A stretch of 43,480 nucleotides of DNA from a virus, in IMG/VR virus record IMGVR_UViG_3300033997_000552, positions 1 through 43,480 of that record, one strand, 5' to 3'. How positions within the stretch are numbered: position 1 is the stretch's first letter; each line of letters begins with the position of its first letter. Both the position numbers and the translations under genes were made by a program. Of this stretch, positions 9,796 through 42,224 are shown in pieces. Under the pieces are notes generated by a model. It did not search any database. It had not been told where the DNA came from and worked only from the letters and a program-made list of their open reading frames with translations.

Positions 9796-10800
9796 TCAGG
9801 CGGGCGTCTTGGGCAAGAAGGCGGCTTGCATGCGCGCGAGCCATTCCTCGGCCCACTCCAGCGCCAGCTTGCTGAACTGATTCGTTTCTGGCGTATCGCC
9901 CTGGCGGATACCCATGAAGAATCGCTCGATGGGGCGGGAGGCGTTCGGAGACAGCCCTTCGATGCTGGTGTGCTCTACGCCGCGCGCGTTTGCCAGAGTG
10001 CCGACCAAGCAGGCGCAGGAACCGTGATAAGTGCTGCCGTCGACACGGCCGGCCTTCAGCGCATCGATCAGTGCGGGAACCTCGCCCGGCGTGGCGGACA
10101 GAACCGCCCACATGTCATCGCGGATGGGCGTGAGGTCGGCACCGCCCAGGTCGGCACCGCGCAGGTTGGCACCGCCCAGGTAGGCACCGCCCAGGTCGGC
10201 ATCGCGCAGGTCGGCACCGCGCAGGTCGGCACCGCCCAGGTCGGCATCGCGCAGGTCGGCACCGCGCAGGTTGGCACCGCACAGGTTGGCACCGCCCAGG
10301 TCGGCACCGCCCAGGTCGGCACCGCGCAGGTTGGCACCGCACAGGTTGGCACCGCGCAGGTCGGCACCGCGCAGGTTGGCACCGCACAGGTTGGCACCGC
10401 GCAGGTCGGCACCGCGCAGGTAGGCACCGCCCAGGTAGGCACCGCCCAGGTCGGCATCGCGCAGGTCGGCACCGCCCAGGTAGGCACCGCCCAGGTCGGC
10501 ATCGCGCAGGTCGGCACCGCGCAGGTCGGCACCGCGCAGGTTGGCACCGCACAGGTTGGCACCGCGCAGGTCGGCATCGCGCAGGTCGGCACCGCGCAGG
10601 TTGGCACCGCACAGGTTGGCACCGCGCAGGTCGGCATCGCGCAGGTCGGCACCGCGCAGGTTGGCACCGCCCAGGTAGGCACGGGCCTCCACAGCCTGCT
10701 CCAGCGCCACGCGGGCAACCATGCCGCTCTCGGTGCCCTCGGGCACATCAGCCGTGAAGAGCACGGCGCCGGTCCAGCGGTTCTTGATCTCGTAAATCAC
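9796..10800 (-). CDS. Pentapeptide-repeat protein, first gene of pL
   Basis: About 334 residues from GTG 10800, which has GGGAGAAG upstream; another GTG at 10821 lacks a site. After an N-terminal region (IYEIKNRWTGAVLFTADVPE), residues about 40-225 consist of some 37 pentapeptides of the form A(D/N)Lxx, with Leu at the centre and Ala two before it, the pattern that folds as a right-handed quadrilateral beta-helix. A 110-residue C-terminal domain follows (DDMWAVLSA, YHGSCACLVGT, SKLALEWAEEW). Some such proteins mimic DNA and block gyrase (MfpA, Qnr); that role is only a possibility here. Being first after pL, it should be made early and strongly. Confidence 0.9.
   Translation of the reverse strand: MIYEIKNRWTGAVLFTADVPEGTESGMVARVALEQAVEARAYLGGANLRGADLRDADLRGANLCGANLRGADLRDADLRGANLCGANLRGADLRGADLRDADLGGAYLGGADLRDADLGGAYLGGAYLRGADLRGANLCGANLRGADLRGANLCGANLRGADLGGADLGGANLCGANLRGADLRDADLGGADLRGADLRDADLGGAYLGGANLRGADLGGADLTPIRDDMWAVLSATPGEVPALIDALKAGRVDGSTYHGSCACLVGTLANARGVEHTSIEGLSPNASRPIERFFMGIRQGDTPETNQFSKLALEWAEEWLARMQAAFLPKTPA
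10134..10681 (+). repeat. 15-bp tandem repeat inside the pentapeptide gene
   Basis: On the plus strand the unit reads about GGTCGGCACCGCGCA with variants at positions 3, 8 and 12. About 37 units run without interruption. A higher-order 60-bp unit is duplicated almost exactly at 10561-10620 and 10621-10680 (identical for roughly the first 50 bases), showing recent expansion. Each unit encodes one pentapeptide, so copy changes keep the frame. Confidence 0.92.
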
Positions 10801-10836
10801 GGGCTTCTCCCTGTTTCTCACCGGGTGGTGAGGTGT

Positions 10837-10964: not shown

Positions 10965-11309
10965 TCATCTCGGGGTTGTTTTGGCTCGGTCTATGCAGGT
11001 GCGGAACACGCGAAGGCGCGCTTCGACTGGGTCTTCTGGCTTGCCCTTGTACGCAGCACGAATCAGTGCGTGATAGACCTCGACTTGAGTGGCGGTCACG
11101 TTGGGAACTTCGGACATGATCGCGTCAGCGCCATCGTGCGCATTCTTCTCTGTGACGCCGCTCTTTCGCAGGGATGCGGCCTGTTCGGCTGCTTTGCCGA
11201 GAAATCGGCAGCTGAGACCGACCTCGGGATCCATCGCAGGGCTTTCGGCATTGGCGCTTTGGAAGCCCAGCGCCAATAAGACAGCGGCAATCCAACAGGC
11301 ACGGCTCAT
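10965..11309 (-). CDS. Signal-peptide protein coupled to the repressor
   Basis: A 114-residue protein with a clear N-terminal signal peptide, MSRACWIAAVLLALGFQSANA, probably cleaved after ANA near residue 21. The mature part is helical with two cysteines (SCRFLG and FRTCID) that may pair in the periplasm. Its ATG overlaps the repressor's TGA by one base (TGATG), and a terminator follows, so it must be expressed with the repressor in the lysogen. That points to lysogenic conversion or superinfection exclusion from the periplasm. No family is recognised; the role is inference. Confidence 0.8.
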   Translation of the reverse strand: MSRACWIAAVLLALGFQSANAESPAMDPEVGLSCRFLGKAAEQAASLRKSGVTEKNAHDGADAIMSEVPNVTATQVEVYHALIRAAYKGKPEDPVEARLRVFRTCIDRAKTTPR

Positions 11310-12301
11310 CAGAACTCCCTGACTTGACTGGGCGGGAAAACGCCCACGATGGGGTGAATCTTCTCCACTTCTGTCGCGGAGAAACTGAGCCTCAAATTGC
11401 CATTTACTGACATCACTTCGACGCCGCCATCACGGTGCTGAAAAAGCAATTCCTTGGCCATTTTTCTACCGTCGGCGAGCATGAGCGCCACATACTCACC
11501 TGGCCTGGGAGGGGAGTTCGGCTCGACCAAAACATACCAGCCATTGCGAATGGCGGGTGTCATGCTGTCACCCCGAACCTTCAGGGCATAGGCCTGGGTG
11601 TCACGCGAATGATGCACCAGATAGCCGTCCCCGTGCCCCACCGGGAACTCCAATTCGTCGTAATACCCGTTCTCCCCCAGCTGCGCTATTCCCACGACAG
11701 GGATTCTCCTTGGCTCTTTTGTGATGGGCCCGATGTACTCGAGGTCTTGATCGCCGGCGACGTCCGCGCCTTGGTGCTGTCCAATGCCATTGTGGACTCG
11801 ACTCTGGGCAACGTCCAGAAGGCGACGAGCCTCGTCAAGTGACATTACCGCGCGCTGGGAAAGCTCTTCTCCCGATAGATCGAACACCGCTGCTAGGGCG
11901 TGGCGCTCTTCATTGGACGGATCGACGCCACCTTCGATCGATTCCAGGTGCGACACGACCAGTCCAGCCTGAGATGCCAATTCCGGCAACGTCATCCCGC
12001 GCGCCATGCGCAGCAGGCGAAGCGAGCGGGCCAGCGATGGCTCAGGCGCACCGGTTCCGGCGTGCTGGGCGTCCATCCAACCCACTGGCTTCCCCATCCC
12101 GCTTTCGAGTTTGCGGGCGGCTTTATCGCCAAGATTCCGGGGCTTCCCGGTTTTACGGTCGATTGTGCGGCTGCGAATTTGGCTCAGGTAGACCGGGGAA
12201 AGTTCGGACCGCTCGGCCAAGTGTTCGGCGGTCCCGGCCTCCCGGACAAGGGCTTCAAGGTTCTCAAGGCGGATTTCGGAGACGGCTTTCATGGCCGCCA
12301 T
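11309..12301 (-). CDS. cI: Phage repressor with two HTH regions and S24 domain
   Basis: Read from ATG 12301 (330 residues; ATG 12292 is possible, and an upstream frame to 12409 runs through the operators and is rejected). Residues 10-60 hold one DNA-binding module (LSPVYLSQIRSRT). Residues 92-126 hold an Xre-type helix-turn-helix (MTLPELASQAGLVVSHLESI). From about 187 comes a LexA/CI-type S24 peptidase with Ser246 in RGDSM and Lys283 in MAKEL. RecA-stimulated self-cleavage would inactivate it; the expected Ala-Gly site is replaced by Ala206-Gln207 in VVGIAQLG. It should bind oL and oR and hold pL and pR off. No good ribosome site is seen, so its message may have little or no leader. Confidence 0.93.
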   Translation of the reverse strand: MAAMKAVSEIRLENLEALVREAGTAEHLAERSELSPVYLSQIRSRTIDRKTGKPRNLGDKAARKLESGMGKPVGWMDAQHAGTGAPEPSLARSLRLLRMARGMTLPELASQAGLVVSHLESIEGGVDPSNEERHALAAVFDLSGEELSQRAVMSLDEARRLLDVAQSRVHNGIGQHQGADVAGDQDLEYIGPITKEPRRIPVVGIAQLGENGYYDELEFPVGHGDGYLVHHSRDTQAYALKVRGDSMTPAIRNGWYVLVEPNSPPRPGEYVALMLADGRKMAKELLFQHRDGGVEVMSVNGNLRLSFSATEVEKIHPIVGVFPPSQVREF

Positions 12302-12303
12302 TT

Positions 12304-12344
12304 GATAGCAATTCGCTAAATATGAGGATGAGCGAATTGCTGTA
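12304..12344. promoter_or_regulatory. Repressor promoter region with weak operators and dyad
   Basis: AGCAATTCGCT (12307-12317) and AGCGAATTGCT (12331-12341) form a perfect 11-bp inverted repeat with a 13-bp spacer. Each arm also resembles half of the phage operator, with site centres near 12312 and 12336. A minus-strand -10 TATTTA (12317-12322) lies between them and would start the repressor message about 10 bases before ATG 12301, as for lambda PRM. The -35 is poor, so activation by bound repressor is plausible. Confidence 0.55.
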
Positions 12345-12356
12345 TTTGTCGCTTGA
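12340..12356. promoter_or_regulatory. Operator oR2 (half site)
   Basis: The right half TCGCTTGA matches 7 of 8 bases of the operator; the left half is poor. Its centre (12348) lies 23 bp from oR1, the same spacing as at oL, which is the main reason to accept it. Confidence 0.5.
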
Positions 12357-12382
12357 CTGACGTTAAGCGAATCGCTTAAGCT
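12353..12382 (+). promoter_or_regulatory. Early rightward promoter pR
   Basis: -35 TTGACT (12353-12358) and -10 TAAGCT (12377-12382) lie 18 bp apart with operator oR1 between them, the same layout as pL. The expected start, near 12389, falls at or next to the cro ATG at 12390. Confidence 0.7.
12363..12379. promoter_or_regulatory. Operator oR1 (perfect palindrome)
   Basis: TTAAGCGAATCGCTTAA, centre 12371, a perfect 17-bp palindrome. It occupies the pR spacer and the start of its -10. Confidence 0.87.
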
Positions 12383-12389
12383 AGGCGCC

Positions 12390-12653
12390 ATGAAACTCTC
12401 CGAATACATCGCTCAAGAGCGCGGTCGCCAGGCAAAACTCGCCAAGGCGCTGAATGTTCCTTCCGTATCGGTCTACCAATGGGCCGCTGGAATCCGTGAG
12501 GTTCCGGCGAAGCGATGCCCCTCCATCGAGCGCCACACCGGCGGTGCGGTGACTTGCGAAGAGCTGCTGCCGGATGTCGACTGGGCATACCTGCGCCGCT
12601 CGAAGCGGCAACGTCGCGCCGCGCCGGCCCAGCAGGAGCCGAGCCATGCGTGA
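12390..12653 (+). CDS. cro: YdaS/Cro-like regulator
   Basis: An 87-residue DNA-binding protein of the YdaS/Cro type: KLSEYIAQERGRQAKLAKAL and VPSVSVYQWAAGIREVP form the helix-turn-helix, then CPSIERHTGG and TCEELLPDVDW, a run typical of the family. It is divergent from the repressor and first on the pR message, so it should act as the lytic switch protein on the same operators. No Shine-Dalgarno sequence precedes the ATG, and the predicted +1 is at the ATG, so it may be translated from a leaderless message. Confidence 0.9.
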   Translation: MKLSEYIAQERGRQAKLAKALNVPSVSVYQWAAGIREVPAKRCPSIERHTGGAVTCEELLPDVDWAYLRRSKRQRRAAPAQQEPSHA

Positions 12654-41064: not shown

Positions 41065-41197
41065 ATACTGCGACCATGCGCGACCGATCTACTTCGACTC
41101 GGCCGCGCAGGTTGACGCAACGCCCGCCCAGGTGCGCAGGCAAGTGCTGACTGTCAATGAAACATGGCGTCGCTTGTGCGAGCAGCGGCGGTCTTAG
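40970..41197 (+). CDS. Rz1: Outer-membrane spanin lipoprotein (Rz1-like)
   Basis: A 75-residue lipoprotein whose signal ends in the lipobox SSLTGC, with Cys23 the acylated residue. It starts inside Rz and extends 133 bp past it, unlike lambda, where Rz1 is wholly nested. The mature part (PARVGVEYCDHARPIYFDSA) is longer than lambda Rz1 and less Pro-rich. Its stop overlaps the convergent lipoprotein gene's stop. Confidence 0.88.
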   Translation: MCKTTWHSRTMMLLLIVSSLTGCAAPARVGVEYCDHARPIYFDSAAQVDATPAQVRRQVLTVNETWRRLCEQRRS

Positions 41198-41568
41198 CGG
41201 CGCGGCGGGGCACAGGTATTCAGTAGCTTTCTGAATTCGCCTTCGGAAACTGAGATGGAATCCTGACCGGAAAAACGGGCACTGACCTTCGACCCCGACG
41301 GCAGGCGGTCAAGAGTGGCCATATACAAGACGCGTGTCTTGAACATCTGATATGTCTCAACAGTGATGTCCACGCTGCCGGAGTCGGGGTAGGGGGTGAC
41401 TTGGATGTAGTCGGCCCCGCTGATCTTCATGCATCGAATAGTATTGTCGATTGATGCTGTGGATTCGTACACCTCTGGGGCTGTCGCTCGGATTTCCTTG
41501 GGTGTCATCGCTACGCATCCGGCCAGGCCGGCGGTAAGCGTGAAGAGGGCCGCTACTTTCTTGGTCAC
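41194..41568 (-). CDS. Accessory lipoprotein
   Basis: A 124-residue lipoprotein: MTKKVAALFTLTAGLAGCVA with the lipobox LAGC and acylated Cys18. The mature beta-rich part (VDITVETYQMFKTRVLYMAT) has two more Cys (RCMK, NTCAP). GGAGACTGACGC precedes the ATG. It is on the opposite strand to the lysis genes and probably expressed in the lysogen; surface changes or superinfection exclusion are possible. No family recognised. Confidence 0.75.
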   Translation of the reverse strand: MTKKVAALFTLTAGLAGCVAMTPKEIRATAPEVYESTASIDNTIRCMKISGADYIQVTPYPDSGSVDITVETYQMFKTRVLYMATLDRLPSGSKVSARFSGQDSISVSEGEFRKLLNTCAPPRR

Positions 41569-41623: not shown

Positions 41624-41956
41624 TTAGCCGGTTGTGTGAGTGGCCTCCGTGGTCCACTGGATCCACCAGCCCTGGTAGTAGCGCACTCCAGCGATTTCCT
41701 CGAAGCCACAGACCATCATCCCTCTGTCGCTGCCGAACGTCAGGAGCTGCGGCTCAATGAGGTCAGGAATTGCCGCTTTCTGCGTCGCCCCGAACTTGAG
41801 CATGCTGTCCATCGTCAGGACCGACACGTAGCGGTTGAGTGCCTTGTTGAGGATCGAGTACATGCGCACGGCACCGACCACGGGCGCGGCCTGGTCATGA
41901 TCGTGTCGGCGCTCGCCGAGGTGGTGGGTCCGGACGACGGAGCAGAGCAGTTGCAT
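41624..41956 (-). CDS. Gene behind a LexA-type box, unknown function
   Basis: A 110-residue protein (or 79 from ATG 41863). It contains MYSILNKALNRYVSVLTMDS, GATQKAAIPDLIEPQLLTFG, then SDRGMMVCGFEEIAGVRYYQ and GWWIQW. ATG 41956 lies 17 bp from a near-consensus SOS box and has no good ribosome site. The sequence resembles small unknown proteins in phages of related bacteria. SOS control would make it inducible with the prophage, so an induction helper or antirepressor is a possibility, by inference only. Confidence 0.65.
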   Translation of the reverse strand: MQLLCSVVRTHHLGERRHDHDQAAPVVGAVRMYSILNKALNRYVSVLTMDSMLKFGATQKAAIPDLIEPQLLTFGSDRGMMVCGFEEIAGVRYYQGWWIQWTTEATHTTG

Positions 41957-41957
41957 G

Positions 41958-42005
41958 GACTTGCTTGAAATACTGTATGGATAAACAGTATATTTCAGAC
42001 AAGTC
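41958..42005. promoter_or_regulatory. LexA-type SOS box within a 48-bp dyad
   Basis: TACTGTATGGATAAACAGTA (41971-41990) has the CTGT-N8-ACAG form known for gamma- and betaproteobacterial LexA. The symmetry goes on outwards: GACTTGCTTGAAATACTGT on one side and ACAGTATATTTCAGACAAG on the other, with two small offsets. A minus-strand -35 TTGTCT (complement of 41997-42002) and a weak -10 CATACA overlap the box. Confidence 0.8.
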
Positions 42006-42224
42006 CTAGCGCAATTTGGCCCCGTTTTTCGATTGATTGTCCAGATCGTCCCGGATGGCCATCAGATCAAGCGCCTTGCATGCAAGCTCAAGCATGTGCG
42101 GCAGCTCGTCGGCTTTCGCAAGATATCCCGCGTATGTCCGCCGACTGACGCCCAGGGCGACGGCAGCGGTGTCGTATGTATAGCCATGGCGCGCTTGCCA
42201 CTCTCGTAGATCATTTGCTGTCAT
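42006..42224 (-). CDS. Small helix-turn-helix protein
   Basis: A 72-residue protein starting MTANDLREWQARHGYTYDTA. AAVALGVSRRTYAGYLAKAD is a clear helix-turn-helix, then PHMLELACKALDLMAIRDDL. It overlaps the upstream gene by 14 bp and stops next to the SOS-box dyad. It resembles small Xre/YdaS-like regulators; targets unknown, although regulation of its own block is possible. Confidence 0.72.
   Translation of the reverse strand: MTANDLREWQARHGYTYDTAAVALGVSRRTYAGYLAKADELPHMLELACKALDLMAIRDDLDNQSKNGAKLR

Follow-up and report, generated by a model that had tools for sequence, protein, structure and literature searches.

In the DNA analyzed here, a stretch of 43,480 nucleotides from a viral record (the window), the 20 bp at 41971-41990 are very likely a conserved LexA operator of the gene downstream, as judged from the sequence and its counterparts in related phages. 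We further propose that the intergenic element as a whole may be a two-layer off switch of an SOS-inducible prophage gene, a reading for which we see the chances as evenly balanced. The LexA layer is well supported by conservation, and the hairpin layer is predicted. The features that enter the argument are the following.

41971-41990, no strand assigned: predicted LexA operator, 20 bp, TACTGTATGGATAAACAGTA, from matrix score and conservation in relatives
41973-41988: operator core, CTGT-N8-ACAG
41987-41992, minus strand: predicted -10 hexamer TATACT, overlapping the operator, proposed from conservation
42009-42014, minus strand: possible -35 hexamer TTGCGC, 16 nt before the -10 and within the end of the upstream gene
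41957-42006, no strand assigned: extended dyad, 50 bp, a predicted hairpin in mRNA ending at the start codon, from predicted folding and flank shuffles
41624-41956, minus strand: predicted SOS-controlled gene, 110 aa, PHROG 5560, predicted all-beta
42006-42224, minus strand: upstream co-directional gene for a small HTH protein, PHROG 6962; its stop codon adjoins the dyad
41194-41568, minus strand: downstream lipoprotein-like gene, possibly co-transcribed, with a weak match to PHROG 27124
11309-12409: S24 repressor, with PHROG 12107 at residues 40-132 and HTH at 126-183

The LexA box and its conservation

A near-consensus LexA box had been predicted within 41958-42005, and this was borne out. 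By direct count, 17 of the 20 positions of TACTGTATGGATAAACAGTA are identical to the E. coli consensus TACTGTATATATATACAGTA. The motif scores 33.1 bits, a value slightly flattered by a 20-bp scoring matrix built from the boxes of the family including that of the window, and the best of 20 Markov-simulated windows reached 12.3 bits. It is the sole LexA-type box in the window. The core CTGT-N8-ACAG taken alone is weak evidence, because one copy is observed where 0.38 are expected and at least one arises in 27 of 100 shuffled sequences.

More than 80 Achromobacter/Bordetella prophage relatives were found for the product of 41624-41956. The relatives comprise 71 from IMG/VR contigs, one from Bordetella phage PHB09, and 24 loci of bacterial genomes. 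Apart from one Pigmentiphaga locus, these genomic loci are from Achromobacter or Bordetella. Most are 58-75% identical to the 110-aa product of the window, and three distant copies are 40-45% identical. The exact core lies close to the start codon in 64 of 78 distinct upstream regions, at an approximately constant distance. When a core mismatch is allowed, a box stands at the matching place in all tested loci with upstream sequence except L080 and L096. Among the 40 phage records checked whole, 35 contain the exact core, which is usually single in the phage. Boxes of the same type were found in the lexA and recA upstream regions of seven Achromobacter/Bordetella genomes, a host type inferred from relatives. 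LexA control is the natural reading, because the box is conserved in relatives and the same type of box occurs at host lexA and recA; the position of the box and the matching host boxes thus support the earlier suggestion that this gene is probably under SOS control. The distant copies (L093, L094, and L096) come from Bordetella genomosp. 1 and Pigmentiphaga, and the two Bordetella copies retain a LexA-like box. A neighbor in L093 weakly resembles Mu Gp27, and L096 adjoins a tannase gene.

The box is also conserved beyond its own limits. TATACT is a conserved extension on the gene's upstream side, and conservation is lopsided, with 1.83 and 1.70 bits at positions -4 and -3 on this side and 0.69 and 0.88 bits at the mirror positions. 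This hexamer would be a good -10 for 41624-41956, judging by its conservation. The candidate -35, TTGCGC, is a weak match to TTGACA, and its TTGC is common to the flank cluster that includes the window. If TATACT is the -10, transcription would start mid-box, approximately 7 nt downstream of it, and the full hairpin described below would therefore be present only in read-through RNA.

The extended dyad and its predicted hairpin

The original prediction extended the box into a 48-bp dyad at 41958-42005. The symmetry is real and occupies the intergenic gap, but its extent had been set one base short on each side. The dyad runs from 41957 to 42006. It thus reaches from the base that immediately precedes the ATG (41954-41956) to the upstream gene's stop codon (42006-42008), the gap between the two minus-strand genes being 49 bp. 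Its arms (41957-41972 and 41991-42006) are 88% complementary, with the LexA-like 20-mer at the center, and the sequence on the minus strand is GGACTTGTCTGAAATATACTGTTTATCCATACAGTATTTCAAGCAAGTCC. In 4000 shuffles of the flanks that left the box untouched, the hairpin of the window gave p = 0.0015 (z = -4.1), compared with p values of 0.03 to 0.71 for 14 host recA/lexA boxes treated in the same way as controls. Replacing one flank by that of unrelated relatives never produced a fold as good as the native one. The flanking dyad is a layer separate from the LexA box and unlikely to be there by chance (p about 0.0015).

Folding in RNA had been raised as one use of the dyad, and modeling supports it. 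Opening the start region is predicted to require 23.0 kcal/mol in read-through RNA with the hairpin and 3.9 kcal/mol in an RNA that starts mid-box and thus lacks the upstream arm. With the upstream arm shuffled, the predicted value is about 10 kcal/mol, and the predicted hairpin contribution of this arm in the window is +13.7 kcal/mol. The gene is almost without a Shine–Dalgarno sequence (-0.2 kcal/mol; the median of 16 other genes in the window is -5.9 and the family median is -1.0) and should therefore be sensitive to structure at its start.

In the proposed two-layer switch, host LexA on the 20-bp box would block the gene's own promoter, as the box overlaps both TATACT and the predicted start, and DNA damage would release this layer by inactivating LexA. 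The second layer would operate in RNA. The flanks of the box would complete the long hairpin only in RNA read through from the upstream co-directional gene, burying the start codon region with its missing Shine–Dalgarno sequence, so that leaky read-through would yield little protein. Transcripts of the gene's own promoter would start mid-box, without the upstream arm, and be translatable. Based on the predicted folds, a hairpin acting as a read-through lock is plausible, at close to an even chance.

Similar hairpins are predicted in relatives, where the gene directly upstream is often SRAP (YedK/HMCES). Phages with SRAP in this position have a different outer stem, GATTCTGCTGC/GCAGCAGAATC, immediately before the ATG, and individual loci of this group were matched by as few as 0 of 300 shuffles. 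In the group's alignment, 89% of cells are paired, versus 24-53% with slid partners. One pair shows a C-G to U-A double change, in 9 sequences, and there are several G-U forms. The covariation score was matched by 16 of 500 shuffles, which is modest support, and RNAalifold gave only 8 pairs, none with a double change. An excess of G-U over A-C mismatches was also considered as a sign of selection at the RNA level. The counts (18 versus 39) reveal no preference for RNA over DNA pairing and are dominated by misaligned inner loops, which makes them unusable for this purpose.

The predicted hairpin contribution is above 4 kcal/mol in 85% of the loci where SRAP lies within 100 nt, in 17% of those with SRAP further away, and in 17% of those where the SRAP query found none. 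The first two classes differ with a Mann–Whitney p of 5.5e-6, a value that ignores kinship, and the correlation is not phylogenetically independent, because a single clade supplies most of the strong cases. Among independent cases of a hairpin with an abutting co-directional gene, the window is the best. Bordetella phage PHB09 is a counterexample, as the hairpin is absent there though SRAP abuts. The hairpin is weak in L039, L045, and L058, and for the most part also among loci with a divergent neighbor. Several loci of the two classes without a nearby SRAP have a small gene (MADVTDW...) in the opposite orientation directly before the box. In L006, L013, L022, L029, and L075, a small conserved gene, MADVTDWQQRDEYYWAGPGGWTICRVF..., diverges from the PHROG 5560 gene, and the box may therefore serve both directions in those loci.

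A simpler account is that of a plain LexA-controlled prophage gene, with an extended dyad that is incidental or plays no part by itself. In its favor, only the box is kept throughout, and many relatives have no extension. However, the native flanks of the window stand apart from their shuffles at p = 0.0015, no comparable extension is found at host lexA boxes, and the hairpin recurs with different sequences and correlates with an abutting co-directional gene. Consequently, we consider the plain account possible but doubtful. Returning to the read-through lock, a broader form of the proposal can be put forward tentatively, as we hold it to be somewhat short of an even chance. A LexA operator that doubles as the top of an mRNA hairpin would combine LexA repression with translational silencing, would have arisen more than once where a co-directional gene lies directly upstream, and would keep the SRAP-linked gene strictly SOS-dependent.

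The downstream gene, its partner, and other readings

SRAP was found in 37 of the 40 phage records carrying PHROG 5560, and in most fetched loci it is located just upstream of the PHROG 5560 gene in the same direction. The two genes are a conserved pair located toward the end of Achromobacter/Bordetella prophages, with SRAP often the terminal gene of the record. The phage of the window is one of the three records among the 40 without SRAP. No second LexA box controlling SRAP was found upstream of it in about 50 loci; its transcription should therefore escape the shut-off and would otherwise leak into the gene. In the viral contig L074, a LexA-type box (10697-10726) with GAAATA...TATTTC flanks lies directly before a SRAP-like gene (L074:10652, minus strand). 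Earlier work describes SRAP in prophages and connects it to SOS mutagenesis genes (PMC3765255). Because the gene usually travels with SRAP, the most likely role of the PHROG 5560 product, and our best guess, is in prophage or host handling of DNA damage.

The product of 41624-41956 had no match over the cut-off in Pfam or NCBIfam, including to any antirepressor family, and PHROG 5560 has no assigned function. Its AlphaFold2 model is a small all-beta fold (pLDDT 80), for which a fold search of PDB and BFVD gave no hit at E<=0.001; the RanBD/PH-like and lipocalin folds that came up are weak suggestions. Sequence relatives in PDB were found neither for this product nor for the repressor of the window. 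The lipoprotein-like gene at 41194-41568 has relatives in L021 and L043. Elsewhere in the window, 9796-10821 encodes a pentapeptide-repeat-like protein in which GADLR/GANLC repeats form long runs.

The original prediction likened this gene to the tum antirepressor, as a second input for induction in a phage whose repressor was taken to be self-cleaving. Such a system, following the logic of the Gifsy antirepressor and phage 186 tum, would place a LexA-controlled antirepressor beside the repressor's own response as a second route to induction. A LexA-controlled gene in a temperate phage would be in keeping with it, as would a window repressor that cleaves itself poorly. LexA and CI repressors are expected to cleave themselves at Ala-Gly or Cys-Gly. 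The window's repressor has an S24 domain with GDS...K and carries L-G (VVGIAQLGENG) rather than either pair at the likely cleavage position, so it may self-cleave inefficiently. The AQLGENG motif is common to this repressor and those of PHB09 and L119. Trans-acting prophage antirepressors are established (PMC3121763). However, the gene is distant from the repressor gene, and its product, predicted to be all-beta and without an antirepressor match, remains about 60-75% identical across phages whose repressors, in most of the cases examined, are related to that of the window only in the peptidase domain. Ten of the 40 phage records, which may be fragments, yielded no S24 repressor. With diverse repressors and a DNA-damage protein, SRAP, as the conserved partner, the antirepressor idea is not supported, and we consider it unlikely.

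The flanking arms could instead be a site at which a second DNA-binding protein joins LexA, for example the phage repressor or the product of the adjacent HTH gene. Long dyads are typical of operators, an HTH gene adjoins the dyad in the window, and a phage protein assisting LexA is known in GIL01 (PMC4551915). The arm sequences, however, vary between phages while their pairing is kept, and the HTH gene (42006-42224), which occupies the place of SRAP in relatives, was found only in the window among the loci compared. We therefore regard a second-protein site as quite improbable. A role of the hairpin as a terminator, either for the upstream gene or for late transcription coming from the opposite side, was rejected, as the stem is stable on both strands but no T-run follows either arm and a terminator scan made no call.

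Comparison with known systems

PHROG 5560 emerges as a conserved, predicted SOS-controlled family of Achromobacter/Bordetella temperate phages that is tied to the abasic-site protein SRAP and has no described function. If the hairpin layer is true, a DNA operator doubles as an RNA lock, a simple route to strict damage-dependence of a prophage gene despite neighboring transcription. Our literature search found nothing relevant on LexA boxes that serve as RNA hairpins, with coverage that was incomplete and an earlier precedent possible.

The element resembles the LexA operators of the SOS regulon in sequence, in palindromy, and in its overlap with a predicted -10 and start, and is of the type found at host lexA and recA. 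It differs in that the box sits inside a longer dyad and would regulate a prophage gene of PHROG 5560. In IS10 and IS50, the transposase gene is protected from read-through transcription. The likeness is that a mobile-element gene is insulated against outside transcription; those elements have no LexA operator within the hairpin and do not concern a prophage damage gene. Phage 186 tum and the Gifsy antirepressors (PMC3121763 for Gifsy) are likewise LexA-controlled genes in temperate phages, whereas the gene in the window has no sequence or context link to a repressor and the partner of its family is SRAP. SRAP/YedK in prophages (PMC3765255) is also a prophage-borne DNA-damage gene and adjoins PHROG 5560 in relatives. 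However, the LexA box here comes after SRAP and before PHROG 5560, and the phage of the window has no SRAP.

The proposed logic has a precedent in phage T4. For I-TevI, soc, e, and segB, a hairpin covers the start only in upstream-initiated transcripts, with experiments for I-TevI, soc, e, and others, and a promoter inside the element gives translatable RNA (PMC2988022). In both cases, the start codon is sequestered in the long RNA and free in RNA from the inner promoter, which in our case is a prediction. The inner promoter of T4 is a phage late promoter, whereas the one proposed here would be a LexA-repressed, sigma70-like promoter. In contrast to the T4 hairpins, the operator itself would form the top of the hairpin, and there is no Shine–Dalgarno sequence.
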